From the IMG/VR virus record IMGVR_UViG_3300036907_000061, positions 1-64,000 of that record: a stretch of DNA of 64,000 nt. The stretch is one strand, 5' to 3'. Positions 11,230-63,776 of this stretch are shown here, one piece after another. A model generated the notes under the pieces. That model worked only from the letters and a program-made list of their open reading frames with translations. It did no database searches and was not told where the DNA came from. How positions within the stretch are numbered: the stretch's first letter is position 1; every line of letters starts with the position of its first letter. A program made the translations under genes and the position numbers. This DNA comes from a virus.

Positions 11230-11445
11230 TTAAGTCGTTTTGGTGTTGGATGCAAGTTTTTGTTTTATTGCATCTATCTCGTTTCGGTGGTCCTCCAGCA
11301 CTCTTTGAATTGAGAATGTAATGTCCCCATGCCACTTTTGAAGCGTCTGCTGACCTGCCTCGGAAAGCTTGTAGAATACGTCGCTTGGGAACTGGGGCCA
11401 CTGGATGACGCTTTTTGGTTGAGCGGGCGATGCTTGTGGTTTCAT
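11230..11445 (-). CDS. Small hypothetical protein between two structural genes
   Basis: The protein has 71 residues: a Pro/Gln-rich N-terminus, then one amphipathic helix-rich segment (residues 35-65) that could form a coiled coil. It overlaps the upstream 985-residue gene by 4 nt, indicating coupled translation in the late operon. No family recognised; it could be a small tail or chaperone component. Confidence 0.55.
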   Translation of the reverse strand: MKPQASPAQPKSVIQWPQFPSDVFYKLSEAGQQTLQKWHGDITFSIQRVLEDHRNEIDAIKQKLASNTKTT

Positions 11446-14399
11446 ATTCTGCCTATGTTGTGCGAATCCACGGGAATGGTTCTGAATATTCGTCCGGTGA
11501 TTTCAACGGGATTGTTGATTCCGGTGGTACTGATGCTGTCTCCTAGATAATAGGACATCATTGTGGGTTTTAGCAAATTGCTGGTCTTGGGATGGGCAAT
11601 AACACCTGATTGCCTGATGGGATTCGATCCGTCTGGATTAACGCTTCCAATAAAACCAACCGCCACCGAACTGTCGGCGGACTGGCTGGACAGTAAAAGA
11701 ACGTATTCGTATATTATCTTCTCGCTAGATGCGTCTCCAAATGAACCCACACCGTGGGATATGTAACTATTGTATGGTTGTCCGTCTCTATGATAAATAG
11801 AGTTTATGATCGTGAATGTATCGGATGTGATCTTGCCAGCCCCGATCACAATGACCTGTGTGGGCGAGACATATTCAGCCACTGCAAATGTTGATCCCGA
11901 AGACGTGCGAATGCTTTTCCACACATCGGAAGGCTGAAAGAAGTCGGATGATGACGATGCAGTGTTGGAAACTGATGTGTCAAGATTTGCGGTAATAGAG
12001 CCAGATGACCTGCCCTGTCCGGACATTAGCCCATAGCGGTATACCACTCCGGACTCTGTTCCAATTATAAACCAGTCCTCCCAATCGCCCGGGCTGGATT
12101 GTCCGGTTGGCCTCTTGACAGAGGCGGCAGATGTAATATCCATCGAGGTTGAAGATGCTGTTTGATACAGGTAGTCATATCTAATAGCCTTGTCCTGGGT
12201 TTGGGACGGGAAACAGATAAAGAACTCCTTGGTCACAGAGCTGGATTCAGTGAATATTCTATACTCCGCCGACTGTTCATATATCTGATTGACCGCTTGA
12301 GAGACTATCGATCCTGCGGTTCCGGTCAGAACGATGGCGGTATTTACTCCACCGATGGTGGCGGGCAGCGTACCTGCGGACATTTCCTGTAAGATGGGGC
12401 GTGGCAGTGGTGTGGAGATGGTCTGGTCTCCGGATGGTGATGTAATGATGAATTGGTCGTCGAATCCTGCCAGAACGCCCAGGGAATAATTTCCCGAACC
12501 ATCATATGTTTGTCCATCGGGAACAAGGTTTACGCTGGTGATGGGTGACTGGCTGGCCTGTTCAAAAAATAAATTCTCGCAAGGCTGTAGTACCTGTACC
12601 GGCATTGGAACCTGACGGAGCAGGTCAAATTGATAGAAGTGGTCTTCTGACGCCCACATTAGAAACACATCGTTTATGCTTTCCAGCGTGTGTGGATATG
12701 CGATTTGAGTTCCACGGGTGCACTTGATTCTTTGAAATGTGAACGGCTGAGAAGCGTTACCTGTGAATTGTGCGATGTATATGTCGGGGGTATCCTTTAG
12801 GATGACCAGATACCCCCTAAGCATCTTGGCCTGAACAATGGTTCCACCATCATCGTCCAGGTCTTGGAATTGTCCGGTTATGCTTCCCACTGTATCCGCC
12901 CTTTGTGCCAGCATGTCCAAGGCGTGGTTGTCATCGGAAGTGTCATGCAAAACGGTGGTTTGAACAACATCTGACAGTATGATTGAGTTGGCAGAGCCTG
13001 GGTATACAAACGCAATGACGGATGTTAGATTGTTGCCCTGATCTCCAATGCCATTCACAGTTATGCTTCCACCGTCCCCAAATAGTTCCGGCAGTGATTT
13101 GACGGGATAGTCCAGGTGTACCGTAGTTTGCCCCTGCGTTGCCCACGAAGGAACGGTTGCCCCAAATCTCCTGGGATCATCCGGCAGAGACCATATGCTT
13201 CTTCCTCCATAATGAGTGATGCCTGATTCATTATTGAACAAAGCATAGGCGGATGGATTCTGTATGGAAACCGACTGTGGTTTTATTGGGTCATTGGATG
13301 CAACCGTAAGGTAGTGTGTGGACCCATCGGTATGTATTCCGGTTATTTGACTGATGGTGCCATCCTGCCAGAATAGATTGAGACCAATTACCGCGTCTGG
13401 ATTCAACGTGAATGTATTGTTAGGGAAAAGATTCTCTACGGATGGCTGTACGGAATAGTCTTTGTATGCATCGGGGCTGGAAGGGTTGGAGGATATGGTA
13501 AATAACTGTGATGGCTCGGAAAGATTGGATGAGTCGATAACACAATGGGTGGCATCCGTGACCGAAAGTATTACTCCCTGCAATCCATTGGCCATTGTTA
13601 CAGTACATCCCTCCAGACCAACAAATCCATTGCCATCATTGAACACCGCAGAGGAGGCCGTAAGAATTGATCCAGCAACTCCGGTGGTTCCGGAATTTAC
13701 CGTTCCGGTGGCGGGGAGCGAAGATGACACTCCTGATATGTATGCATTGTCGGAGGCGTTGATGGAAGACATTATGGTATTCATGGAGTCTTCCGTTATT
13801 TCCCGAATGTCGTGGCAGCAAAGAATATCATCAACCACCGAAATGGTGCCCACGCTTGCTATGCTGTTTTCCCTCAACTCATAAATAGGCTTGCATTTCA
13901 AGTCAAGAAGGTTATAAGTCATTGGAAGGTCCAGTCCGTTGTTCAGAACCAGCCACGACCCCACCTGTTCCGACTCCCATCTTCCGGCGTTGGGAGAAAG
14001 CCCGCTTGCTATGGTGATCCAATTTCCAACCTCGGTCTGGAAATATCCCACTACGGCGTATCCATCATCATTATAATCTCCGTTGTCCAGCCCGAAGTAT
14101 CTCCAGATGGTGGTCTTGGTTCCCACTATTACAGCCCTGCTTCCATTTGGAAGTATGCATTCTGCCGACAGGGTGATTGGGCCATCTACCCCAGGTGGAA
14201 CAGATTGGTCTACAGAGGATGAGTTTGGGTTGGGTCGGAACTTGTCATATCCCTCTCCGCGAACCTCTCTTTCCAAAATCCTTCTCCAATCCCGTTTGGC
14301 AGTGTAGTTGGATGGACCAACATCCTCAACCGACATTCCAGACATCAGCCTGCCTCCGGAGGAGGGCTTGATTTCTATTGGTCTCGGAGGTCTGGCCAT
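11442..14399 (-). CDS. Large beta-rich virion structural protein
   Basis: The protein has 985 residues and starts MARPPRPIEIKPSSGG. It has no signal peptide. The sequence is acidic, Ser/Thr/Gly/Asp-rich and beta-predicted throughout, with repeated blade-like segments such as YFGLDNG and YRYGLMSGQG that suggest beta-propeller or tail-tube-like folds. Its position between the fibre-like gene and the secreted-protein cluster fits a tail hub or stopper role, as large proteins of this type have in podoviruses. This is a context-based inference. Confidence 0.5.
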   Translation of the reverse strand: MARPPRPIEIKPSSGGRLMSGMSVEDVGPSNYTAKRDWRRILEREVRGEGYDKFRPNPNSSSVDQSVPPGVDGPITLSAECILPNGSRAVIVGTKTTIWRYFGLDNGDYNDDGYAVVGYFQTEVGNWITIASGLSPNAGRWESEQVGSWLVLNNGLDLPMTYNLLDLKCKPIYELRENSIASVGTISVVDDILCCHDIREITEDSMNTIMSSINASDNAYISGVSSSLPATGTVNSGTTGVAGSILTASSAVFNDGNGFVGLEGCTVTMANGLQGVILSVTDATHCVIDSSNLSEPSQLFTISSNPSSPDAYKDYSVQPSVENLFPNNTFTLNPDAVIGLNLFWQDGTISQITGIHTDGSTHYLTVASNDPIKPQSVSIQNPSAYALFNNESGITHYGGRSIWSLPDDPRRFGATVPSWATQGQTTVHLDYPVKSLPELFGDGGSITVNGIGDQGNNLTSVIAFVYPGSANSIILSDVVQTTVLHDTSDDNHALDMLAQRADTVGSITGQFQDLDDDGGTIVQAKMLRGYLVILKDTPDIYIAQFTGNASQPFTFQRIKCTRGTQIAYPHTLESINDVFLMWASEDHFYQFDLLRQVPMPVQVLQPCENLFFEQASQSPITSVNLVPDGQTYDGSGNYSLGVLAGFDDQFIITSPSGDQTISTPLPRPILQEMSAGTLPATIGGVNTAIVLTGTAGSIVSQAVNQIYEQSAEYRIFTESSSVTKEFFICFPSQTQDKAIRYDYLYQTASSTSMDITSAASVKRPTGQSSPGDWEDWFIIGTESGVVYRYGLMSGQGRSSGSITANLDTSVSNTASSSSDFFQPSDVWKSIRTSSGSTFAVAEYVSPTQVIVIGAGKITSDTFTIINSIYHRDGQPYNSYISHGVGSFGDASSEKIIYEYVLLLSSQSADSSVAVGFIGSVNPDGSNPIRQSGVIAHPKTSNLLKPTMMSYYLGDSISTTGINNPVEITGRIFRTIPVDSHNIGRI

Positions 14400-22810: not shown

Positions 22811-23533
22811 TTATTTATTTGATCTTGGTTGAGTGAAAAGGTTCTTGCGTATTAACGCATATGACTGCATGAAGCTTTGGTGTCTGGCGATATCGTGCTC
22901 GACGTATAATGCTGTTTTTGCCGTCGCAAACGCGGCCACGGCTTCGGCTGCCTGTTCGTCATAAGGAACAAGTTCATCGTTATTGGATGTAAGCTTAAAA
23001 CCGTTCCAATGCAAGGAAAATTTCTCGTTTGGCCTTATGAACGGATACAGGTAAAAGGTTTCGTTGTCGGGTCCTATGGAGAAAAGCGGCCTGCCGTCGA
23101 AGTGTTGTATGCGACCGTGCACCAGGTCGTATCGGTGTTCCCACGGCCAGTTTCGGCAGCTTAAACGATGCTGGTTTCTTTCTCTGCCCGACCTGCCATC
23201 CTCATCACGATCCACGCCGTATCCGGGATCAAGATGCTGGTGATAGAAGTCGTGGTCATACATATCATGTTCGTGTCCCACCACCCATGCATCAACAACG
23301 GAGCAGGAAGGGGGCAGGGTTCCAACTCCAGCCTTCCCTTCGATGACAAAGTCCGTGCAGTAGTAAATGGTCTCGTGGTTCTTGCGATATCTTGGGATGT
23401 AATGCTGCAAATCAAGGACTGCGTTTCTGATTTGCTGGGGCAGGAATTCCTCCAGTCCTATGCGATTGGCGTCCAGAGGCAACTGTGACAGGACCAAATC
23501 CTGGAACTCTGACCATTTCATATAATCGTCCAT
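22811..23533 (-). CDS. Head-tail adaptor / tail tubular-type protein
   Basis: The protein has 240 residues. The N-terminal segment (MKWSEFQDLVLSQLP, LPQQIRNAVLDLQHYIPRY) is helical and resembles the opening of podovirus adaptor proteins. The middle is His/Asp/Arg-rich, and the last 60 residues are helical (QAAEAVAAFATAKTALYVEHD). Its place downstream of capsid and upstream of the fibre genes fits a connector component. Assigned from pattern and context, not from a firm family match. Confidence 0.5.
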   Translation of the reverse strand: MDDYMKWSEFQDLVLSQLPLDANRIGLEEFLPQQIRNAVLDLQHYIPRYRKNHETIYYCTDFVIEGKAGVGTLPPSCSVVDAWVVGHEHDMYDHDFYHQHLDPGYGVDRDEDGRSGRERNQHRLSCRNWPWEHRYDLVHGRIQHFDGRPLFSIGPDNETFYLYPFIRPNEKFSLHWNGFKLTSNNDELVPYDEQAAEAVAAFATAKTALYVEHDIARHQSFMQSYALIRKNLFTQPRSNK

Positions 23534-23540
23534 AATGATT

Positions 23541-23966
23541 CTATTGAGTGATTGTGGGGGTCTTTATGTCCATTACCCTGCCGATTACCAAGGCGTCGTC
23601 CAAATCGTTTATAGGGGCTTTACCGGAGTCGGTGGCTGGTGATGGGTTGGGTTCAACGAGAGCCCCCGCAGGCGAGACAAGGACGGATGTCTGGGATTGC
23701 CCCGGCAAGTTCAGTGAGTCGTTCCAGTCGGAGAGTGTGCCTGAGTTTTTTTTTAAACAGTTTTCATATTCTTCTTTGTTTATTTCCGTCACTGCCAGAT
23801 TGGTCTTGCACAGTTCTGACAGGGAAGTTATCTTGATTGGGTCGGATGCGGAGAATACTCCCATCCATGTTCCACAAAGTATGTAGCACTCGAATTTGAA
23901 CTGGAATCCTTTTCCCTGTATGGGATGGGCTGCGTTAAGCGCGTGAAAGTATCTTGTTTCGCTCAT
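23541..23966 (-). CDS. Hypothetical structural protein, 141 residues
   Basis: The protein starts MSETRYFHALNAAHP. The first 90 residues look like a compact alpha/beta domain (FQFKFECYILCGTWMGVFSA) and the C-terminal 50 residues are Pro/Ser-rich and probably flexible. It lies 7 nt upstream of the adaptor-like gene and just downstream of a terminator-like hairpin. No family recognised; possibly a capsid-fibre or connector protein. Confidence 0.5.
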   Translation of the reverse strand: MSETRYFHALNAAHPIQGKGFQFKFECYILCGTWMGVFSASDPIKITSLSELCKTNLAVTEINKEEYENCLKKNSGTLSDWNDSLNLPGQSQTSVLVSPAGALVEPNPSPATDSGKAPINDLDDALVIGRVMDIKTPTITQ

Positions 23967-23973
23967 ATTAGCT

Positions 23974-24009
23974 AAAACCGGCGTCAGCCCACCGAAAGGC
24001 CAACGCCGG
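23974..24009 (-). terminator. Rho-independent-type terminator
   Basis: Read on the minus strand, a 7-bp perfect stem (CCGGCGT at 24009-24003 with ACGCCGG at 23984-23978) is followed by TTTT at 23977-23974. A second hairpin (ACGCGG/CCGCGT, 24017-24039) lies just before it, right after the stop of the 195-residue gene. Together they could end or attenuate transcription coming from the capsid gene. Confidence 0.55.
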
Positions 24010-24045
24010 AGGTTGTACGCGGAGAACCCAAAACCGCGTCACATA

Positions 24046-24633
24046 TTAGTGGTATAAACCAAATCCTACTGTCACGTCCCAATCGTCGTTGGAGTTGGTG
24101 CTTCCGTTCTGGAGTGACACCAGTCGGGCAACGTCCGCGTTTCCGAATTGATTTGTGTTGATCGCTATGGAGAACCGACCGTCCACTTCGTTGGTGAGAG
24201 TAGTGGCGGTTACAACGGCAATGGTGTTGGTAACCAGGCTATTGGTGCACCAGATATATCCGCCTGATACTGAATAGTTGGTATATGCCGTTGTTGGACC
24301 ATTAGTGATGGTGTAAGCGCCAATCTTGTATCCCGGATACCACGTAAGGATTAGATTCCCATTGGTATCTGCGGTTATATTGTGATTGGCAACCTTGTAG
24401 AAAACGTCGAAGCTGGTTGTGGTCCCGTGCAAATCAATCACCCCGGCAACACCCGGTGCAGAGAAGGGATTGAGTGTAAATCCGGTAATGCTGGTGACGA
24501 CGTTGGATGGGCCGATATCTTGGTTGAGCACCAGAATTCTAGAGTCGTATTGGTACTGAGGAACGAAACTCTGCGCCAGTGCCATACCCCCGATGGCGAA
24601 TGATGTTAAAATTGCTAATGTGTATTTTTTCAT
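24046..24633 (-). CDS. Secreted beta-rich protein, 195 residues
   Basis: A Sec signal peptide (MKKYTLAILTSFAIGGMALA) precedes a Thr/Asn/Val-rich mature part predicted as beta strands, ending DDWDVTVGFGLYH. No charged or catalytic motif is seen. It follows directly after another signal-peptide gene and is abundant-transcript territory, immediately downstream of the capsid gene. It may be an exported or virion-decorating protein; unknown. Confidence 0.55.
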   Translation of the reverse strand: MKKYTLAILTSFAIGGMALAQSFVPQYQYDSRILVLNQDIGPSNVVTSITGFTLNPFSAPGVAGVIDLHGTTTSFDVFYKVANHNITADTNGNLILTWYPGYKIGAYTITNGPTTAYTNYSVSGGYIWCTNSLVTNTIAVVTATTLTNEVDGRFSIAINTNQFGNADVARLVSLQNGSTNSNDDWDVTVGFGLYH

Positions 24634-32172: not shown

Positions 32173-33744
32173 TTAACCGGAGCCTACTCTGATGAGTCTT
32201 GGTGCCACTTCGGCCTGTTTGAAAACCAACCTTCCGCCCAGCGACTCTTTGAACATGGGATACGAACAGGCATCAAACACATCCACGTATGGGTGCTGTC
32301 GCTTGGGTTTCTCTGGGTCTTCCTTGTCGGCCTCCAGATTCCCCATCATGTCTCGCACATTCTTGCAGGTTGCAGAAACGAATAACTCATCCTGCCACAA
32401 TTTGGATTGTAGTAATCTGATTCGGGCCGAGATGCTTCCCTGTCCCTTGGGGCAGCCAATCATCTTAATCTGTCTCACTCCAACGGCACCGATGTCTTTT
32501 GAAAATTCAGGGGCGGCTTTGTTGAACTCTTTCTCAAACTCCATTGCGTCGTAACTTCCGGTGCCGGGCCGGTACTGGTTGATGGCCGATTCATCGGTGA
32601 TGTGCATGTATTGAAACTCGAAATTGCATGTTTTCTTCCAGAACCGCATCCTTTCAATCACCTCCCAGGCCAGGCTTTTATACAGCGTTCGTTTGTAAAA
32701 CTTGCAGATTTCATCGAAAATTATTATGACATTCTTGTCCTTCATGGGTATGAATTGCTCGAATATGATTGCCGACCACATCTGTCCCAGGTCGTATCCG
32801 ATGTGGATGGGCCATCCGGGCCGGGGCAGTAATCCCTCTCCTTTGATAATATCCCCCTTACAGTGCCGGTCCTGATTCCAGTATTCGGTAAGTATTCCAT
32901 CTCCCCTTGGCCGGTCCACCCATTCTCCACCAACCAGTCTGCGGTATTCGGTCGGGTCGTTCTTGAGGGTCTTTTGAAGCTGTTCCATGTAGCCCCTGGG
33001 AACCCTATGTGCGTTCTCAGTGAATGGAATGTGGAATATGGAAAAATCCTTGTCTCTGATGCCGGTCTTTTCATCAACGCATTCTACATGAAATACCTTG
33101 AATACCCAATGAGAAGGACCTTCTGGATTGCAGGTGGCAACAAATTGCTGTGGTCCGGTGATTCCCCGTCTGCGACCCAGTTGCAGTTTTGGATAGACGA
33201 AGTATTCCCTGCCGTCGCAATTGGTCAATTCCTCCACAATTACCATGCTGGGAGACCATGCTTTTACTCGATGCTCAACCTGAACAGAATACTGAATTGA
33301 CATCAATAGAATCTTGGACCAGCCGCCATATCTGTTCCTGATCCATCTATGTCGATCTTTGGTGAGCGGGTCTAGTTTGCTGGCGGTGTATTCCAGTCCA
33401 ATTCCGTCCTTCCATGCTGGAAGAATCAAGGTATCCATGTCATACCAAAGGCCTTCAAATCCAGACCGCAGTGAGGGTGTGATGATTAGAACCAGGGCGT
33501 TATCGTTGTCGTAGGCGTGTCTAACCCCCATATAACCGGCACAGATTGATTTACCGCTTGCCTTTTCGGCTTCCATCAATACGTTCAAAGCCGAACTGTG
33601 AAATGCCAGTTTCTGGGTTGGATTAAGATCGGGCTCCCACGTCTTGTCGGGAATGGGTTTGGATGTGGGCGGTGGCGGTGTTTCGACCGGCTCGAATTGC
33701 TCAACTATGGCGCTGGCAAGGTCGTCTGTGAAATTAGGTCGCAT
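32173..33744 (-). CDS. terL: Terminase large subunit
   Basis: The protein has 523 residues. The Walker A-like loop AEKASGKS lies at about residues 59-66, followed by a hydrophobic Walker B strand and acidic pair (MVIVEELTNCDG, near residue 165). The nuclease half has the usual acidic triad candidates, IHIGYDLG near residue 308 and HITDESA near residue 375. The size and order fit a TerL ATPase-nuclease that pumps DNA into the prohead. Its start overlaps the small-terminase candidate by 11 nt. Confidence 0.8.
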   Translation of the reverse strand: MRPNFTDDLASAIVEQFEPVETPPPPTSKPIPDKTWEPDLNPTQKLAFHSSALNVLMEAEKASGKSICAGYMGVRHAYDNDNALVLIITPSLRSGFEGLWYDMDTLILPAWKDGIGLEYTASKLDPLTKDRHRWIRNRYGGWSKILLMSIQYSVQVEHRVKAWSPSMVIVEELTNCDGREYFVYPKLQLGRRRGITGPQQFVATCNPEGPSHWVFKVFHVECVDEKTGIRDKDFSIFHIPFTENAHRVPRGYMEQLQKTLKNDPTEYRRLVGGEWVDRPRGDGILTEYWNQDRHCKGDIIKGEGLLPRPGWPIHIGYDLGQMWSAIIFEQFIPMKDKNVIIIFDEICKFYKRTLYKSLAWEVIERMRFWKKTCNFEFQYMHITDESAINQYRPGTGSYDAMEFEKEFNKAAPEFSKDIGAVGVRQIKMIGCPKGQGSISARIRLLQSKLWQDELFVSATCKNVRDMMGNLEADKEDPEKPKRQHPYVDVFDACSYPMFKESLGGRLVFKQAEVAPRLIRVGSG

Positions 33745-37527: not shown

Positions 37528-38148
37528 ATGAGCTCCACCAGCAACCAGTTTGTTAGGGTTTTCCTTAAAATATTAGATTCTTCCATTGCGGAGGATTACA
37601 GGGTAAGGCACGTCTTTGAAGACTTATTCAAGCTCTGTGATTACAAGACTGGCGTTCTGGACATGACCAGACAGTCCTTATCCAGGAGGCTCAACATGCC
37701 AATTGAAGAAATTAATCGGGCAATAGAAAAGCTAGAGTCTCCAGACCCAAACAGCAGGGACCAGCAATTCGATGGAAGAAGGATCGAAAAACTGGATGCC
37801 CATCGGGATTGGGGCTGGAAAATATTAAACTGGGAAAAGTATAGAGAAATACTCAAGAAATCTTCTGGAGCAGAAAGAACAAGAAATTGCAGGTCGGAGT
37901 CTGGAGATTTTATTAATCCAACACTTGAGGAAGTGATTCAATTCTGCGAATCCATCGGACTGCAAAAACTTGATGCAGAGGGCTTTTATTGGGGAAAGGA
38001 ATCCGGCAAGGAAGGTGGAAGGTGGATGAATGGAAAATATCCAATGAAGGATTGGAAGGCAACCATACGGCAATGGAAGTCGTATGGATACATGCAGAGC
38101 CAAAAATCAGAACAGAAACAAAAGAAAGTGGTTGATTTTGCCCCATGA
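37528..38148 (+). CDS. Replication-initiator-like (DnaD/phage O type) protein
   Basis: The start at 37528 (MSSTSNQFVRV) is chosen because it follows the palindromic block; the longer frame would translate the operator itself. The protein has 206 residues: an N-terminal winged-helix-like domain (KTGVLDMTRQSLSRRLNMPIEEINRAIEKLESPDP) and a C-terminal helical domain with GFYWGKESGKEGGRWMNGKYPMKDWKATIRQW typical of phage replication initiators. The N-terminal motif ESPDPNSR...GRR recurs in the minus-strand gene at 51243-51725, so the two are related. It directly precedes and overlaps the primase-helicase gene. Confidence 0.65.
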   Translation: MSSTSNQFVRVFLKILDSSIAEDYRVRHVFEDLFKLCDYKTGVLDMTRQSLSRRLNMPIEEINRAIEKLESPDPNSRDQQFDGRRIEKLDAHRDWGWKILNWEKYREILKKSSGAERTRNCRSESGDFINPTLEEVIQFCESIGLQKLDAEGFYWGKESGKEGGRWMNGKYPMKDWKATIRQWKSYGYMQSQKSEQKQKKVVDFAP

Positions 38149-39800
38149 AGTATCAGGATTTCATCACAAGGTTTCCCAGGTTCAGGAAGCTGGGAGGAAG
38201 GGTGGAAGGAATTCTCACCAACTGTCCGGCACACGAGGATGGAACTGCATCGTTGCAGATTTGCCGGGGCAATGACGAAAGGGTTTTGATTACTTGTCAC
38301 GCTGGCTGTTCTACGGAATCGGTGGTTTCTTCCCTGGGACTCAAGATGGGAGATTTATTTCCAGACCGGGAAAACAGACCCTTCATTGTTCCAAAATCAA
38401 CATCGGCAGCAACAACAGTAAAACCTGAAATCGAGTGCGTTTATCCATACCTTAATCACTCAGGAAATGAAGTGTATCAGGCGGTAAGACTTCAACCCAA
38501 GTCGTTTCGGCAGAGGCATTTGGTGGACGGAAAGTGGGTTTGGTCAATGGATGGGGTTGAAAGGGTTTTGTATCATTTGCCGGAAGTTCTTCAATCGCAG
38601 GAAGTTTGGATTTGTGAGGGCGAAAAAGATGCCGACAATCTGGTCGCGCTTGGATACTGCGCCACATGCAATGTTGGGGGAGCCGGAAAATGGCTTGACG
38701 GATATACAGAAACGCTTGTTGGAAAAGACGTTGTGATTTGCGGAGACTCTGACGATCCCGGCAAAAAGCACGTCGAACTGGTTTTTGATTCAATCTGCGG
38801 AAAGGTAAAGACAGTAAGAATCATCAAACTGCCAGAGGGGATCAAGGATGTTTCAGATTATATATCCACTTTCAAAGACCCATCTGGACCCAAAAGGGCG
38901 CTCGACGACATTAAAAATTCGGCACATCCCTTTGTAAAAGGAATCAAACTCCCAATTTATTCCATGAGCGAGATGGAGGGAAAGTATAAAGCACACGTTC
39001 GTAGAGCCTCCGAACTAAAACTTGACCTTGGAAAGTGGATTCCAACATTCGGAAGACACATACGTCCCCTGGTGGAGGGGGAGTTGGTGTTTGTGCTGGG
39101 AGATGTAGGGGGAGGGAAAACCGCCGTGCTGCAACAGATTGCAGAAGTCTCCAGACCACTGCCAACCATCATGTTTGAGTTGGAACTTCCAGAAGAGCTT
39201 TTGTTCGAGAGATTTCTGGCACACAAATCCAAACTGACCTGCTCTCAAATTGAGACCGGATATCTGTCTGGCGACTCTCTGGGGGCGGGACTGGACTCCG
39301 CATTTAAAAATCTCTTCGTCTGTCCAGAATCCAAACTCACACTGGAGGACATTGAACGATACATCATGCGCGGAGAGCTGAAACTGGGCGAGAGGCCACG
39401 GTTAATTTTAATAGACTACATCCAGCTAATGCAAGGAATGGGAGACAATCGCAGGGAGAGGGTATCAGATATTGCAGAAGGATTGAAAGTGCTGGCCAAG
39501 TCCACCAGGACAATCATCATCTGTTCGTCCCAAGTCCAGCGGCCCACCGAGGGCAATAGGAAGATTGGGCTGCATTCAGGCAAGGAAAGCGGCAGCATAG
39601 AGGCCTCATGCGGATTGCTGCTTGGTCTTTGGAGAGACGAAGAAGACCCCACATTGATGCACTTGAAGGTGCTGAAATCAACCAAGGGAGGAGCGGGCCT
39701 GGAAGTTCTCTGCAACTTTGATGGCGCAAGAATGACAATAACCGAACGCTCGCAGTTTGCAGGGTCGGACGTTCCCAACACGCAATCTAAAGACCCATGA
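38145..39800 (+). CDS. Bifunctional primase-helicase
   Basis: The protein has 551 residues. The N-terminus has a zinc-binding-like pattern (NCPAHEDGTAS ... CHAGC). It is followed by a TOPRIM domain (ICEGEKDADNLVALG near residue 151, then ICGDSDDPG near residue 198). The C-terminal half is a RecA-type helicase with Walker A GDVGGGKTA near residues 319-327 and Walker B-like LILIDYIQLM near residue 421. This is the gp4/DnaB-type layout that makes primers and unwinds DNA at the phage fork. It overlaps the initiator gene by 4 nt. Confidence 0.85.
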   Translation: MKYQDFITRFPRFRKLGGRVEGILTNCPAHEDGTASLQICRGNDERVLITCHAGCSTESVVSSLGLKMGDLFPDRENRPFIVPKSTSAATTVKPEIECVYPYLNHSGNEVYQAVRLQPKSFRQRHLVDGKWVWSMDGVERVLYHLPEVLQSQEVWICEGEKDADNLVALGYCATCNVGGAGKWLDGYTETLVGKDVVICGDSDDPGKKHVELVFDSICGKVKTVRIIKLPEGIKDVSDYISTFKDPSGPKRALDDIKNSAHPFVKGIKLPIYSMSEMEGKYKAHVRRASELKLDLGKWIPTFGRHIRPLVEGELVFVLGDVGGGKTAVLQQIAEVSRPLPTIMFELELPEELLFERFLAHKSKLTCSQIETGYLSGDSLGAGLDSAFKNLFVCPESKLTLEDIERYIMRGELKLGERPRLILIDYIQLMQGMGDNRRERVSDIAEGLKVLAKSTRTIIICSSQVQRPTEGNRKIGLHSGKESGSIEASCGLLLGLWRDEEDPTLMHLKVLKSTKGGAGLEVLCNFDGARMTITERSQFAGSDVPNTQSKDP

Positions 39801-53675: not shown

Positions 53676-53840
53676 TTTCACTTTCCCGCGTGCCTGGACT
53701 GGCAAACAGCGTAATCCGTCACTAATTCAGCGGCATCCGTTCAGTCCGCGTCTTTAAGGTGACGTTGCGAATCGTCCGGAGTTCTGGCCCATAAAGGCTA
53801 AACCGGCGGCGCGGGAATCCACTTTCCCTGACGGTAAACA
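53676..53840 (+). other. Gene-free stretch with long inverted repeat
   Basis: CACTTTCCCGCG (about 53682-53693) is answered by CGCGGG (about 53809-53815), and CACTTTCCC recurs directly after it near 53820. These could close a structured RNA of about 130 nt, or form a terminator-like element. No coding frame is supported. Confidence 0.3.
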
Positions 53841-54228
53841 ACAACAAAAAACTATGGAAACCACAAACATAAATGAAGTAGAAATCAACGGCGTTCAGTA
53901 TGTTCGAAAGGACTCTGTTATTCCGAAACTCAACAAGGAAAACGCATGCATAGTGCGATGTGAAACGGCGGGCGTTTTCTTTGGCTATCCATCGTCAACC
54001 GACCTTTCCAAAGGCGTTGTGACATTGAAACAGGCGCGCAGACTATGGTATTGGTCTGGAGCCGCGTCCCTGTCTCAACTGGCGGTTGACGGCACATCCA
54101 AACCCGGGGAATGCAAGTTCCCGGTGTCGGTCCCTGAAATCTCCCTAACCAAAGTCATTGAATTGATTCCCTGTACTGAAAAGTCGGTGAATTCAATCAA
54201 TGATGTCGCCATATGGAAAGTCTAAATA
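53840..54228. repeat. 389-bp perfect direct repeat, copy 1
   Basis: Identical to 55609-55997 base for base as read, starting 14 nt before the DUF6948 ATG and ending 3 nt after its stop. The sequences differ outside the block. It may reflect a recent duplication or an assembly effect. Confidence 0.85.
53854..54225 (+). CDS. DUF6948-family protein, copy 1
   Basis: The protein has 123 residues. CIVRCETAGVFFGY, VTLKQARRLWYWSGAASLSQLAVDG and TKVIELIPCTEKSVNSINDVAIWKV are the family's conserved segments. The function is unknown; it is a recurrent small phage gene, often followed by a glycine-rich repeat protein, as here. The protein encoded at 55623 is identical. It overlaps the repeat gene (ATG at 54213). 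Confidence 0.75.
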   Translation: METTNINEVEINGVQYVRKDSVIPKLNKENACIVRCETAGVFFGYPSSTDLSKGVVTLKQARRLWYWSGAASLSQLAVDGTSKPGECKFPVSVPEISLTKVIELIPCTEKSVNSINDVAIWKV

Positions 54229-55608: not shown

Positions 55609-55997
55609 AACAACAAAAAACTATGGAAACCACAAACATAAATGAAGTAGAAATCAACGGCGTTCAGTATGTTCGAAAGGACTCTGTTATTCCGAAACTC
55701 AACAAGGAAAACGCATGCATAGTGCGATGTGAAACGGCGGGCGTTTTCTTTGGCTATCCATCGTCAACCGACCTTTCCAAAGGCGTTGTGACATTGAAAC
55801 AGGCGCGCAGACTATGGTATTGGTCTGGAGCCGCGTCCCTGTCTCAACTGGCGGTTGACGGCACATCCAAACCCGGGGAATGCAAGTTCCCGGTGTCGGT
55901 CCCTGAAATCTCCCTAACCAAAGTCATTGAATTGATTCCCTGTACTGAAAAGTCGGTGAATTCAATCAATGATGTCGCCATATGGAAAGTCTAAATA
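55609..55997. repeat. 389-bp perfect direct repeat, copy 2
   Basis: Second copy of the block at 53840-54228, 1,769 bp to the right. Confidence 0.85.
55623..55994 (+). CDS. DUF6948-family protein, copy 2
   Basis: Same 123 residues as the gene at 53854, with the same A-rich leader (AACAACAAAAAACT) before the ATG. The downstream repeat gene differs between the copies. Confidence 0.75.
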   Translation: METTNINEVEINGVQYVRKDSVIPKLNKENACIVRCETAGVFFGYPSSTDLSKGVVTLKQARRLWYWSGAASLSQLAVDGTSKPGECKFPVSVPEISLTKVIELIPCTEKSVNSINDVAIWKV

Positions 55998-58993: not shown

Positions 58994-59236
58994 ATGAAAG
59001 ACAAAACAATGATCCGCATCGTATGCACATTCGGCGTTGCCGAAACAACCACCCACGAGTGCCCGCAAGGCACCACCATCGGCGAACTCAAGGCCGACTC
59101 TTCGCTGAAAGCCCGCCTGGGCTACGGTGACAACGTGAAATGCCTCATCAACGGCGTTTCGATAGATGACGACGCCGAAGTTCCCGCCGGGGCCACTGTC
59201 CGTTTCGAGACCGCGGCCAACCAGAAGGCGGCGTAA
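58994..59236 (+). CDS. Beta-grasp ubiquitin-like protein (PRTRC-C/ThiS-MoaD type)
   Basis: The protein has 80 residues. The order is beta hairpin (MIRIVCTFG, THECPQG), helix (TIGELKADSSLKARLG), then strands (DNVKCLINGVSIDDDAEVPAGATVRFE), the beta-grasp layout of ThiS, MoaD and PRTRC protein C. It ends AANQKAA with no terminal diglycine. A start at 59009 (MIRIV) would remove five residues. It is the first gene of an operon with an E2-like, an E1-like and a JAMM gene, so it is the probable modifier of that system. No attachment targets can be deduced. Confidence 0.7.
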   Translation: MKDKTMIRIVCTFGVAETTTHECPQGTTIGELKADSSLKARLGYGDNVKCLINGVSIDDDAEVPAGATVRFETAANQKAA

Positions 59237-59296
59237 GCCGTTCTTGGCAACAACCCAAAGAGGGGGGATAGAAATATCCTCCCTCTCCCTTAATTT

Positions 59297-59992
59297 ATGT
59301 CACAACGATACTTCAGGCTGGACCTGGACGGAACGGTCACCGATGTCACCCTCTCCGAGAACAAACTTGAAGTGGGAGAGGATTTGATTTCCAACATTGG
59401 CGGATCGATTGTTAGAAAATGCCTTAATGTCTTTCAAATAAAGGACCATGCACCCACCAGCATGGTTATAACATCGGAAAAGGTCTGCGCCACCACAATC
59501 ATCTCGGAAATTCCCATCACTGCTCCGTTCATCATGTCCGGAGACGCCCTGGTTCCGGTCTTTTCATCCGACGCAGACCCTGTTTTTACAATGGTTTGGA
59601 AAGTTCCGGGGGACATGATTCTGGCATTCATGGTTGAATGCTTCCGAGAGTCAAACCGATGGTATGCGGCACACAATCACCTGATTGCATTTGATGGCGA
59701 AAAAGCCGCCTATCGCATTCCATTGTCCAACATATACGATGACGGAAAATTATGCAATGGAGAGTTCAATTCAACGGGTAAAACGATCCAGGAAAGCGTG
59801 TCCAAAGCCCTGGACCAATTCTGCAAATCCCAATGGAACCAGGATTTGGACCGAACCCCGTCCCAATCGCAGGCCATGTTCCGGTTCAAACCCACCGACG
59901 CTGGATTTGATCAACTGCCCCCACTCCAGAAGGACTGGAGATTACTGTGCCAGAAAATCGGAACCGAATCACTTCCGCTATTCCTGTTCTAA
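59297..59992 (+). CDS. E2-like protein (PRTRC-B / Prok-E2 family D type)
   Basis: The protein has 231 residues, close to the length of PRTRC protein B. The hallmark is AAYRIPLSNIYDDGKLCNGEF, where N145, G150 and C153-x-G155 match the conserved motif I know from PRTRC-B, with C153 the candidate thioester cysteine. An N-terminal beta-rich half (LDLDGTVTDVTLSENKLEVG) and a helical C-terminal half surround it. It starts 60 nt after the ubiquitin-like gene and would accept the modifier from the E1-like enzyme two genes on. Direct proof of E2 activity is lacking. Confidence 0.65.
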   Translation: MSQRYFRLDLDGTVTDVTLSENKLEVGEDLISNIGGSIVRKCLNVFQIKDHAPTSMVITSEKVCATTIISEIPITAPFIMSGDALVPVFSSDADPVFTMVWKVPGDMILAFMVECFRESNRWYAAHNHLIAFDGEKAAYRIPLSNIYDDGKLCNGEFNSTGKTIQESVSKALDQFCKSQWNQDLDRTPSQSQAMFRFKPTDAGFDQLPPLQKDWRLLCQKIGTESLPLFLF

Positions 59993-59994
59993 AC

Positions 59995-60804
59995 ATGAAA
60001 CCAAATCCCGCAGATTTTACCATCTTGAATATCAATGCAGAACGGGGGACGATCCGATCCCTACCCCATCCAACTCTTGGATATATTCACGAATTGGAAC
60101 GTGATCCCCATCTGTGGATTCACGCTGAGAGCAATCAGGGAGGGAATGGGTACACCGACGAAATCGATGAGGCGGGATGGTTTACTGCTGCAAGCGTTCA
60201 TGAATTATATATTGGGGACGGTGCTCAATTCTGGGTTCCCAGTAATCCATTTGTTATCAAAGCGGAAAAATCAGCCCCATCCGGCCCATCCAGACGGTGT
60301 TTTATCGTTGAACCATCACGTCCAAACCAATCATTTTACTGGCTGAGGGGTGAAAATGGAATGAGCTTTGGGTATACCGCCAACCGGGTGACTGCCGGAA
60401 TATGGACCTTGCAGGAGGCGATGGAAAAATCATTGGGTGTCCAGTGTGAATTTTGGATTATCAATGATCGAAAATTCGAGCCCAAATCACCCACCCACCA
60501 CCTCGTCCACCTGCTCACAACCTGCAAGAATAGTCCCGAGGAGGTTGATTGGCGCAAGATTCTTTCCATGGATTTTGCCAGCATGACGTCCCGGAATATA
60601 TCTCCCATAAGCGACAAATGCGATTCAGCAGTCATGGCTGGATTGCTGGCTTATTCCGATAGGGCAAGAGACTTGCTGTCGTATGATGATTTCGTTGAGT
60701 TTCACATGATCTTATCAAGAGCCTGTGACCGGTACAAGTCAAAGGTGAAGGAAAATAACCTTCCCAAGACTGCAAGCAAGATAGTGTCGGCATTATTAAA
60801 ATAA
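59995..60804 (+). CDS. Unknown component of the ubiquitin-like operon (269 residues)
   Basis: The ATG at 59995 (MKPNPADFTILNINAE), 2 nt after the E2-like stop, is preferred over a frame extending upstream. The protein is alpha/beta, with WFTAASVHELYIGDGAQFWVP, GYTANRVTAGIWTLQEAMEKS and a helical C-terminus. No known domain was recognised. Its position between E2-like and E1-like genes with almost no spacing suggests it works in the conjugation pathway, for example as an adaptor or substrate-recognition factor. It could correspond to PRTRC protein F or a new component. Confidence 0.55.
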   Translation: MKPNPADFTILNINAERGTIRSLPHPTLGYIHELERDPHLWIHAESNQGGNGYTDEIDEAGWFTAASVHELYIGDGAQFWVPSNPFVIKAEKSAPSGPSRRCFIVEPSRPNQSFYWLRGENGMSFGYTANRVTAGIWTLQEAMEKSLGVQCEFWIINDRKFEPKSPTHHLVHLLTTCKNSPEEVDWRKILSMDFASMTSRNISPISDKCDSAVMAGLLAYSDRARDLLSYDDFVEFHMILSRACDRYKSKVKENNLPKTASKIVSALLK

Positions 60805-60805
60805 T

Positions 60806-61468
60806 ATGGCAAGAATATTCATCATTGGATGCGGCGGAGTGGGCTCATGGCTCGCTCCGGCAATCTGCCTGCTGGCGGGCAGGAGAAACGTAACCCTGGT
60901 TGACGGAGATTCTCTGGAGGACAAGAATCTGGACCGTCAATTATTCTCCGAGGACGATATCGGGAGAAACAAGGCCGAGGCCCTTGCGGAAAAATACCAA
61001 TGCGAGCACATACCCTCGTTTTATGAGGAGGGCCTGGTCCGGCATAAGGATTCTGACTGGCTGCTGGTTGGGGTGGACAACAATGCCGGAAGACTCTCAT
61101 GTTTAAAGTCGTGCGACGACTTCGGGTGTCAGGCCATATTTGGGGCCAATGAAACCCACTCCTCCGAGGCATACTATTATCGAAAAGACTGGTCCGGAAC
61201 CAGGCTGGACCCCAGAATTTACTACCCGGAGATTCTCAAACCTGGCTCCGACCCCAGGGTCAGGTCCATTGGGTGTACCGGGGAGGCGCAAAAGGACAAT
61301 CCCCAACTGGTATCCTCCAACGTGTCGGCCAATTCCCTTATGCAAAGCCTGTATGTGGTCTGGGGCATGGAGGCTCCCAAGTTATCAGCCGATATCATTC
61401 CCTTTCTGCCTTTCAGAAGAATCATCAACCTGTCTGCCATGTCGGAAATTAAAGTAGGACAAGCATGA
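60806..61468 (+). CDS. ThiF/E1-like adenylating enzyme
   Basis: The protein has 220 residues. The nucleotide-binding loop IIGCGGVGSW is at residues 6-15, D33/D35 follow (TLVDGD), and NLDRQ (41-45) supplies the asparagine and arginine-finger positions of E1-type enzymes. K56 (RNKAEAL) and D91 (GVDNNAGR) complete the adenylation site. SIGCTGE holds C157, a candidate thioester cysteine. This is the PRTRC/ThiF arrangement without extra domains. It would activate the modifier protein and pass it to the E2-like protein. Confidence 0.8.
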   Translation: MARIFIIGCGGVGSWLAPAICLLAGRRNVTLVDGDSLEDKNLDRQLFSEDDIGRNKAEALAEKYQCEHIPSFYEEGLVRHKDSDWLLVGVDNNAGRLSCLKSCDDFGCQAIFGANETHSSEAYYYRKDWSGTRLDPRIYYPEILKPGSDPRVRSIGCTGEAQKDNPQLVSSNVSANSLMQSLYVVWGMEAPKLSADIIPFLPFRRIINLSAMSEIKVGQA

Positions 61469-62544
61469 AACAAAACACAAGATTCAAGGATTGGAAAAAA
61501 TTCGAGGCGGCAGACCCCGCCTTGAAGTCCATGGACCCGAAGCTTGAATCCATTGTCATAAACAACCATCAAACCCAGGAGGATGGCGTATTTTATTCCT
61601 CCAAGGCTTCCGGAAAATATAACAAGACCGAAAAGGGCGCGGAGCGGATTTCCCTGGAAGAGGCCCTGAAAGTTTGCGCCGACAGGTCGGCCACCCACAT
61701 ATGGGTTGAGGTGTGTTTTATTTACAGTAGAATAAAATGCTCAGCTCTATCAGAATGGATTTCCCGACCGCCAAACATTGAAGGATGCCTGGTATTGTGC
61801 ATGCCCCGCGAGGTGTTCTACACCCGAAGTGGTTCTGGTGGTTTTTTGTCCACCACTGACGACATCCAACTGGCCGGTAGGTGGAACGCAACTCATCCCA
61901 CCATATTAAATACAGCAGGCAATAGAAGTATGGAGATTTGGATTCCATCGGAAGAGAAAATACCCGACGGCAAGACCAGGATGTGCTCCATGGAGAAAAT
62001 GTTGAGCGGCAGTCTGATTGATTTGATCAAGTCCGCGCCCAAAAATCCCGTGGTCAGGTCCATCGTGCTTCAAAAGATGAAGAAGTCCCCCCCGGACGCA
62101 TGCGACACTTTTGAAAAGATCAAGGACTGGATTGAGTTCAATTTCGCCGCTTACGAATGGGCCCCCAATCCCAAGAGTGGTCGGGGGGTGAACTTTACCA
62201 TTGAGGGTTCGGATCGGGAAACGGGTTCTTGCAGCTATGCATGCCACCGATTTGGGAATGTGGAGGAGACGATTTCCGAGGATGACATTTTAGCGGAGGC
62301 CCAACGGGCGCTTGCGGAGGGCTCAATGGAAAGCTTCATAGATTCCATACATGAAACACTGCGGGAGCGAGCCGCGTCCAACATGGAATGCGGGGGAGGG
62401 GAGGATTATGAATATGATGATTACGAAGGAAATGCTTCGGATGGATTGGAAATTGATTTGAATATCTCTGTGGTAAAAGATAAAATAACCGGATTCCTGC
62501 AAACATATCATCGGGACATCCTCAATCAACTGAAAGAACTATGA
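61465..62544 (+). CDS. Unknown component of the ubiquitin-like operon (359 residues)
   Basis: Starts by a 4-nt overlap with the E1-like gene (ATGA) and overlaps the JAMM gene in the same way. Residues 1-110 are helical and charged, 110-230 alpha/beta (MEIWIPSEEKIPDGKTRM), then helices, and an acidic segment (GGGEDYEYDDYEGN) near residue 310 before a final helix. No domain recognised. A PRTRC-F-like role, a target-binding subunit or an E2/E3-type helper are possibilities; the tight coupling argues for a shared pathway. Confidence 0.55.
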   Translation: MKQNTRFKDWKKFEAADPALKSMDPKLESIVINNHQTQEDGVFYSSKASGKYNKTEKGAERISLEEALKVCADRSATHIWVEVCFIYSRIKCSALSEWISRPPNIEGCLVLCMPREVFYTRSGSGGFLSTTDDIQLAGRWNATHPTILNTAGNRSMEIWIPSEEKIPDGKTRMCSMEKMLSGSLIDLIKSAPKNPVVRSIVLQKMKKSPPDACDTFEKIKDWIEFNFAAYEWAPNPKSGRGVNFTIEGSDRETGSCSYACHRFGNVEETISEDDILAEAQRALAEGSMESFIDSIHETLRERAASNMECGGGEDYEYDDYEGNASDGLEIDLNISVVKDKITGFLQTYHRDILNQLKEL

Positions 62545-63776
62545 ACCTGGTCAAAACCGAAATAACCCATCTGATAAGAAACAAGGAGGCCGCCGGGATA
62601 CTCCAGTTCAAGGGGGAGTATAAAGTAACCGAGGCCAAAGGGGAGCTGACCTATGCCGGTCCCAAGATTCCCCCCGGCGAATGGAACAAGATACTTTCAT
62701 TCTTAAAGTGGGTGTATGACACCACCCAGAGCGAGGCCCAGGTCAGGCTGTATCTCAACACCAAGACCAATGTGTGGGCGGCGTGGGCCTATCCCCAGGA
62801 AGCCAACACCGGAATGACCGCCAAGGAGATTGCCAATGAGGCGGCCAACGCCCAAAGGGCTCAGTTCAAAGATGATGCGGGGTGGATATATTTCGGAACC
62901 GTGCACTCTCATTGCGCCTGTTCAGCATTCCAGTCCAGCACGGACGAGTCCAATGAGAAGGACCAGGACGGAATCCATATCACCATTGGATATCTGGACA
63001 AGACGGTGTATGACTTTCACGCCAGGCTCTATTTCGGAAAGGACCAGTTTACCCCAGATATGTCTGTTTTCTGGGAAACGGGGGATGTCATGAGCGGAGT
63101 GCCGGATGTTGTAAGGGACATGATCCCGGACGGATGGCAGGACAAACTGGCAAGGATGCAAATGGTGGTTCCACCATCCGAACCATCTTTCCCGGAACCA
63201 TGGAAGGAAAATGTGGTGGATGTAAGGCCGCAATGGCAGAAAAACGACCGGGCCTGGGATGAGGATAACAGGCAGGGATGGAATGGTCGTTCCAACATCA
63301 TCCACATCGATGGCAAGCCCAACCGCTGGGATGAGTCCACACACCGGTATATTGAACAGGAGTGGGACCAGTTCAAATCGCAGTACGTGCCGTTGGGTTC
63401 GGCATCAAACAAAGTTCCCGAACCCTCCTCCAATCCGGCGTGGTCAAAACAAAGAAGGAAGAAGGGAAACAGGGACAAGCTTATGCCAATTGACGTCCGC
63501 AAACAGGAAGCTTGTGATGAACTTTTCAAGATGGCCAATGAGCTGGGAGCGGAAGAGGCCGATATCATGCTGGAGTCCCAAGGCCTGGCCGATTGTCCTC
63601 TGGCCTGCGCCCTGGTAAAGGTGTTAAAGGATTACGATTTGGTTCCATCCGACATGGTTGACCAGATTGAGTGGGAGTTCAAATTTGACAAGAACACAGG
63701 AGCTCTCAAAGACCCGGTCCTGGAATATGACAAGTCCACCAACCAGTCAGAATTCGAGTCCGGTTTTCCGAATTGA
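62541..63776 (+). CDS. JAMM/JAB metallopeptidase (PRTRC-A type) with long C-terminal extension
   Basis: The protein has 411 residues. Residues 122-135 are HSHCACSAFQSSTD, which fits H-x-H-x7-S-x2-D of JAMM deubiquitinase-type peptidases; FGTV before it and a GYLD strand after it complete the fold. PRTRC-A proteins are shorter; the last 200 residues here are Trp/Asn/Asp-rich and then helical, with no match. The enzyme would cut the modifier from targets or mature its C-terminus. Zn-binding residues look intact. Confidence 0.75.
   Translation: MNLVKTEITHLIRNKEAAGILQFKGEYKVTEAKGELTYAGPKIPPGEWNKILSFLKWVYDTTQSEAQVRLYLNTKTNVWAAWAYPQEANTGMTAKEIANEAANAQRAQFKDDAGWIYFGTVHSHCACSAFQSSTDESNEKDQDGIHITIGYLDKTVYDFHARLYFGKDQFTPDMSVFWETGDVMSGVPDVVRDMIPDGWQDKLARMQMVVPPSEPSFPEPWKENVVDVRPQWQKNDRAWDEDNRQGWNGRSNIIHIDGKPNRWDESTHRYIEQEWDQFKSQYVPLGSASNKVPEPSSNPAWSKQRRKKGNRDKLMPIDVRKQEACDELFKMANELGAEEADIMLESQGLADCPLACALVKVLKDYDLVPSDMVDQIEWEFKFDKNTGALKDPVLEYDKSTNQSEFESGFPN

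Follow-up and report, generated by a model that had tools for sequence, protein, structure and literature searches.

The first 64,000 nucleotides (hereafter the window; positions 1–64,000, 93% of 68,626 bases) of IMG/VR record IMGVR_UViG_3300036907_000061, an uncultured tailed phage, contain a cassette of six co-directional genes that probably constitutes a phage-encoded system for ubiquitin-like conjugation and deconjugation. The genes occupy positions 59009–63776 of the + strand and encode, in order, a ubiquitin-like modifier (UBL), an E2-like protein, a protein that we call P3, a ThiF/E1 enzyme, a second such protein, P5, and a JAMM peptidase (Table 1). A preliminary description of this DNA had proposed a four-part operon. 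Its UBL, E2, E1 and JAMM genes are real and lie where it placed them, with the residues it named, but the operon has six genes, as P3 and P5 lie in between and abut or overlap their neighbours. From the E2 gene onward no gap exceeds 2 nucleotides (nt), and there are 4-nt overlaps at two junctions. The modifier gene had been read from 58994, as 80 residues; the start is most likely the ATG at 59009, because relatives begin at the equivalent Met.

Table 1. Genes of the conjugation cassette and other mapped genes of the window
Gene or product	Positions	Strand	Evidence or residues
UBL, beta-grasp ubiquitin-like modifier (by model), 75 amino acids (aa), C-terminus ETAANQKAA	59009..59236 (open reading frame readable from 58994)	+	AF2 model, Foldseek
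E2-like protein, Prok-E2_D/PRTRC-B related, 231 aa	59297..59992	+	candidate catalytic Cys153 (59753-59755), Asn145 (59729-59731)
P3, 269 aa, between E2 and E1	59995..60804	+	same-position open reading frame in nearly all relatives
E1-like ThiF adenylyltransferase, 220 aa, one adenylation domain	60806..61468	+	candidate catalytic Cys157 (61274-61276)
P5, 359 aa, conserved core ~residues 170-330	61465..62544	+	homologues in 29 loci
JAMM/JAB metallopeptidase, 411 aa	62541..63776	+	E65, H122, H124, S132, D135
Terminase large subunit	32173..33744	-	phrog_2 6e-17; phage hallmark, lineage marker
Primase/helicase	38145..39800	+ (same strand as cassette)	phrog_239 1e-50; replication region
Virion protein	11442-14399	-	window record

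Relatives were gathered by E1 and JAMM searches, followed by a hidden Markov model survey of all loci, and near-duplicate records were set aside; the viral set comprised 70 loci, with the window counted in. These E1 and JAMM genes were found on many uncultured viral contigs and also, in a few cases, on bacterial contigs from metagenome assemblies, assigned nominally to Verrucomicrobia, Geobacteraceae and Cloacimonadota. As had been expected of related phages, the four-gene order recurred: UBL-E2-(P3)-E1-(P5)-JAMM, on one strand, in 60 of the 70 viral loci and in several phage lineages. Where all four genes are present (63 loci), they span 2.7–5.9 kb. Most of the remaining viral loci were without an end gene, often at a contig end. 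The viral locus L108 and the Cloacimonadota contig L038 have the order UBL-JAMM-E1-E2. The cassette genes are under purifying selection, with Nei-Gojobori ratios of nonsynonymous to synonymous substitution (dN/dS) mostly between 0.04 and 0.4 in ten close pairs (one P5 pair reached 0.67, on very few changes). The sequences of E2, P3 and P5 are widely diverged, as a degenerate or chance gene set without joint function might be, but dN/dS lies mostly well below 1, and gene order and near-invariant catalytic residues are kept in dozens of phages. Thus, the cassette goes beyond chance, and we rejected that explanation, to which we attach next to no credence.

According to its structure model, the UBL is a beta-grasp protein. 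In the AlphaFold model, made with 49 homologues, the strands and helices follow each other as in a beta-grasp, and the predicted local distance difference test score (pLDDT) was 88. Its top Foldseek matches in the PDB were Hub1, ubiquitin and SUMO, at a template modelling (TM) score of ~0.7 (best match Hub1, E 6e-5, TM 0.69/0.72), and there were 176 matches at E <= 0.001. The fold check, which had been set beforehand, therefore bore out the beta-grasp fold that had been proposed for the modifier. A UBL profile searched against PDB sequences ranked redesigned ubiquitins first; the matches at sequence level were weak, to a plant ubiquitin-like domain, to ThiS and also to MoaD, and the window protein did not match Prok_Ub (PF14454), the family named for it earlier.

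A lysine near the C-terminus was the single invariant column of the UBL (49/49 aligned), and Lys-Ala or Lys-Gly stood at the C-terminus or one residue before it in 47 of 63 distinct UBLs. Nine UBLs of soil or freshwater type carry 5–30 additional C-terminal residues. The window UBL has a single domain, whereas tandem two-domain UBLs occur in L015-L018, L021, L038, L051 and L108, and therefore a processing protease is implied; one di-UBL matched the PADLOC BilA model at 0.0011. As a separate observation, the residues past Lys-Ala in the UBLs of L003, L005, L006, L008, L011 and L019 (TVELALA, ELACA, NELELVAA, TEVLA) resemble ssrA-like degradation tags, and such a tail could be a degron that the JAMM peptidase removes.

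For the E2-like protein, the preliminary description had named C153, which is present in a KLCNG motif. The match of the window protein to Prok-E2_D (PF14460) was below threshold (16.7 bits, cut-off 25), but 14 of 53 relatives matched this family (best 5.1e-8), and a profile-profile comparison with PRTRC-B (hhalign) gave E 3e-7 at a probability of 93; in it, the Asn and Cys of PRTRC-B lined up with Asn145 and Cys153. These two comparisons secure the family link. Both residues were kept in 67/67 aligned proteins, at a spacing of 8 (N-x7-C). Eukaryotic E2s have a spacing of 8 as well, between their HPN motif and catalytic Cys. The E2-like model (pLDDT 92) comprises a beta-meander, the N-x7-C loop and then a helix 11 residues past the Cys.

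Several observations weigh against a conjugation system. The E2-like model returned weak, unrelated folds and no E2/UBC match from Foldseek against the PDB and from VIA-align; its matches in BFVD were uncharacterised or unnamed viral proteins, and a profile search of PDB sequences gave no matches. Type-6d E2s have been described with an absolutely conserved downstream His (Iyer 2006, PMC1779556), which is absent among the conserved columns of the phage family, where Asn181 and Asp183 are conserved downstream instead. We place the E2 assignment at family level, on sequence and without a structural match. The UBL, moreover, has no di-glycine end. We do not regard this as an obstacle, because the CBASS E1/E2 conjugates a terminal residue that is either Gly or Ala, Ala being functional (Jenson 2023, PMC10097602).

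The E1 matched ThiF (PF00899) at 8e-17 (61.6 bits, cut-off 28.1) and has, as described earlier, the full set of adenylation residues (GxGGxG, D33/D35, N41, R44, K56 and D91); D33, N41, R44 and Q45 were kept in 72/72 and K56 in 73/73 of the aligned proteins, and Cys157 in 74/74. It aligned with PRTRC ThiF at E 1.4e-20 (hhalign), Cys on Cys, and its best profile matches in the PDB were the UBA5, SUMO and NEDD8 E1s, with bacterial BubCD matching as well. PADLOC matches among the window proteins were limited to the E1 region (E1 part of E1-E2 models). The JAMM protein matched TIGR03735 at 9e-5, aligned with PRTRC-A at E 5e-5 (hhalign) with the metal motif in register, and has the intact HxHx7SxxD reported for it, as HSHx7SxxD; the motif was kept in 73/74 aligned proteins and the Glu in 74/74. 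The predicted match to Prok-JAB (PF14464) was found (E 6.4e-5), although at 23.2 bits it fell under the cut-off of 25, and a JAMM profile search of PDB sequences gave no matches.

A single-domain E1 of the ThiF family, together with the weak ThiS and MoaD matches of the UBL, would also suit a sulfur-carrier system, in which the UBL would be a ThiS/MoaD-like thiocarboxylate donor activated by ThiF and the JAMM peptidase would merely free its C-terminus. However, such a carrier would here be accompanied by an E2-like protein with an invariant N-x7-C, it would end in KA or KG and not GG, and it would be activated by an E1 resembling PRTRC ThiF and ubiquitin-type E1s. No sulfur-metabolism family was detected among the cassette and neighbouring genes scanned. 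We consider the sulfur-carrier explanation very unlikely.

P3 had no family match in Pfam, NCBIfam, PADLOC or PHROG, and P5 had none above cut-off. Nearly all relatives have an open reading frame in the place of P3, mostly of ~80-150 aa. P5 is missing from most marine loci, where E1 abuts JAMM, and is a candidate adaptor or E3-like factor. In one locus (L016:10707-11909), a gene for a 400-aa Cys-rich HNH-like protein, with no Pfam match, stands between E1 and P5; it is possibly a homing endonuclease gene inserted into the cassette.

The closest described relative is PRTRC (TIGR03735-TIGR03737 and others; near operon type 6d, Iyer 2006, PMC1779556), which likewise combines a UBL, an E2 of family D, a JAB protein and a stand-alone ThiF/E1 with extra proteins. 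E1, E2 and JAB are homologous between the two (hhalign E 1e-20, 3e-7 and 5e-5), the N-x7-C loop is common to both, and most of the PRTRC-C sequences aligned have K-G close to the UBL end or directly at it, where the phage UBL usually has K-A. The plasmid order is ParB-E-C-F-B-A-ThiF, whereas that of the phages is UBL-E2-P3-E1-P5-JAMM, without ParB and carried on phage genomes. Scores against the PRTRC models were far below cut-off for the window ThiF (TIGR03736, 29.9 bits, cut-off 144.75), the E2-like protein (TIGR03737, protein B, 12.7 bits, cut-off 131.45) and JAMM (TIGR03735, protein A, 22.1 bits, cut-off 101.8). The UBL and PRTRC-C aligned at E 0.17 (hhalign), having the K-[AG] end alone in common, and P5 showed no similarity to PRTRC-F. 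In an E1 tree, the phage cassette enzymes stood apart from the plasmid enzymes (99/94), with long-branch warnings, and one other IMG/VR contig (L023) grouped with the plasmids. To judge from these comparisons, the cassette is a relative of PRTRC, its E1, E2 and JAMM being remote homologues of ThiF, B and A, and not a member of it. The PRTRC relationship proposed earlier is thus supported, now as a separate and mostly phage-borne branch.

Three enzymes are homologous to PRTRC A, B and ThiF, and replication and recombination genes adjoin the cassette in relatives. Both facts could point to PRTRC-like replicon maintenance, in which segregation or replication proteins would be modified and the phage kept as a plasmid-prophage. 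The absence of a ParB gene noted in the preliminary description holds across the record: no ParB_N domain was found there, and 17 of another 18 phage records had none either, in a search in which the PRTRC plasmid control was positive (1.8e-24). A tyrosine integrase, encoded in the final 4.6 kb of the window record, points to integration instead, and the gene order differs from that of PRTRC. Plasmid-like maintenance, one of the roles considered at the outset, has thus become less likely, and we judge it improbable. The sole ParB_N domain among those 18 records (8.5e-16) lies at 77111-77395 of record G026 (L054). Proteins in L002 and L013 that looked ParB-like by eye had no Pfam match and no homologue in the window, and were set aside.

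Three other systems share parts of this arrangement. Bil (BilABCD; parts described in PMC11354881) and Bub have the same four activities as those predicted here, and some relatives of the window cassette share the di-UBL form. BilD, however, has two adenylation domains (IAD+AAD; PMC11354881), whereas the phage E1 is a single-domain protein of 220 aa; the cassette is phage-borne, and the window has a mono-UBL in place of the ISG15-like two-domain BilA. Type II CBASS Cap2/Cap3 resembles it in E1/E2 thioester chemistry (presumed here) on a C-terminal Gly or Ala and in a JAB-type isopeptidase (PMC10097602), but Cap2 is a fused E1-E2, whereas the phage genes are separate, and its tag is a CD-NTase and not a true UBL. 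In the tail-assembly pair TAPI/TAPK (Iyer 2006, PMC1779556), phages also encode a UBL together with a JAB peptidase, but the pair has no E1 or E2, lies in a virion tail cluster, and its UBL, with a conserved C-terminal Gly, is fused to another domain. Our literature search, which excluded preprints and most subscription papers, found no description of a complete phage UBL-E2-E1-JAMM cassette.

The cassette appears to have moved between phages. The window E1 was nested in a clade (22 rows, 100/100) in which most members are ~56-kb phages, whereas none of these ~56-kb phages had a homologue of the window terminase; among 34 records tested, terminase homologues were confined to those of L021 (43%) and of L016-L018 and L051 (28%). 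Outside the cassette, the right-hand 11.6 kb of the window has only an integrase and one small gene in common with the other loci. Because the cassette tree and the terminase distribution disagree, exchange between phage lineages is the simplest reading. In record G024 (L052), the terminase match at 23375-24175 was broken by 6 TAG and 3 TAA codons, as a pseudogene or recoding might produce.

Divergent cassettes also exist in cultured phages. Genes for E2, JAMM and E1 were found in Salmonella phage Arash, in Vibrio phages D69/D148/D181 and in Bacillus phage vB_BauM_KLEB27-3 (gp196 E2-D, gp195 JAB, gp194 ThiF); the UBLs of these phages resemble that of the window weakly, if at all. KLEB27-3 gp199 (L128:2931-3638, - strand; labelled 'hypothetical protein') consists of four tandem 57-aa UBL-like repeats with the junction ...GVKG|MARTVKYG.... 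Three of its units, when compared, were 98-100% identical in amino acids and 81-84% identical in nucleotides, their divergence being mostly synonymous. Near-identical protein repeats with diverged DNA are the pattern of eukaryotic polyubiquitin genes, and gp199 is, as far as its sequence can tell, a polyubiquitin-like tetra-UBL. D69_0307 has three UBL-like repeats ending in GTKG. In Arash, a UBL-like protein of 66 aa ending in RTGTKG lies in an unannotated frame (L125:1-420) just upstream of E2/JAB/E1, and gp251c may therefore be annotated in the wrong frame. The D69 E1 region (L126:4476-5442) is annotated as two opposite-strand coding sequences, 0302 and 0301, and its E1 gene may be frameshifted; the triple UBL, E2 and JAMM of that phage are intact. 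The annotation of Acinetobacter phage ME3 includes ThiF and a 'PRTRC system protein A', so single parts of such cassettes had been noticed in phages earlier. GenBank phages gave no matches to one marine E1, to the window JAMM or to two divergent JAMMs, and a search with the window E1 returned generic ThiF genes and the divergent cassettes of Arash, D69 and KLEB27-3. The best-covered E1 match, MT835529 (H1), was rejected as another system: read by eye, the frame there is MoeB-like and has ABC-transporter genes next to it.

If the cassette works as a conjugation system, the JAMM peptidase would trim UBLs that bear a C-terminal tail, or split fused UBLs, leaving a Lys-Ala or Lys-Gly end. The single-domain E1 would then adenylate the UBL C-terminus with ATP, probably forming a thioester on Cys157. 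The E2-like protein would take over the UBL on Cys153 and, with the help of Asn145 in a UBC-like loop, join it to amino groups of target proteins. P3 and P5 may serve as scaffolds or bring in the targets as adaptors, and JAMM may also take the tag off its targets.

The targets could be the phage's own particle proteins, tagged for instance to alter assembly or to resist tail tagging by a Bil-type host defence. Bil systems are known to tag phage tails, and the Arash E2-like gp248c and E1 gp246c are labelled 'structural protein', a label of uncertain basis. Against virion modification, the identified virion and packaging genes of the window are on the opposite strand, tens of kb from the cassette, and in relatives the cassette adjoins replication genes; we regard this role as unlikely, if less so than replicon maintenance. 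The replication side of the window, on the + strand, ends with the cassette and also has exonuclease and DNA methyltransferase genes. In relatives, the neighbours of the cassette include genes for DNA polymerase A, a helicase and a PD-(D/E)XK nuclease. Because it sits with replication and recombination genes, away from identified virion genes, we tentatively favour a role in early infection, when host or defence proteins would be modified within the cell, and give it slightly less than an even chance. With similar reserve, we suggest that a complete UBL signalling pathway, with polyubiquitin-like precursors among its components, may belong to several phage lineages and be exchanged between them; it would benefit the phage by tagging host or defence proteins, as an offensive counterpart to Bil and CBASS.

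Bacterial UBL conjugation is known as an anti-phage defence (CBASS, Bil) and as unexplained plasmid cargo (PRTRC). A conserved, mobile and complete version in phages would mean that the attackers have this chemistry as well, and phages may tag proteins much as our own, eukaryotic cells do. The set of E1, E2, UBL and JAMM is small and genetically simple, which makes it useful for studying the origins of the ubiquitin system, and with divergent cassettes in cultured phages, such as that with the KLEB27-3 polyUBL, the question is open to bench work now.

Two further features of the record were noted. An acyl carrier protein gene (PF00550, 8e-16) lies shortly downstream of it (L001:7745-8014, which is record 64745-65014). 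An exact direct repeat of 389 nt occurs at 53840-54228 and 55609-55997 of the window; both copies contain an identical 123-aa open reading frame, and each is followed by a low-complexity array of ~12/18-nt units encoding Arg-Ser or Gly-Tyr repeats.

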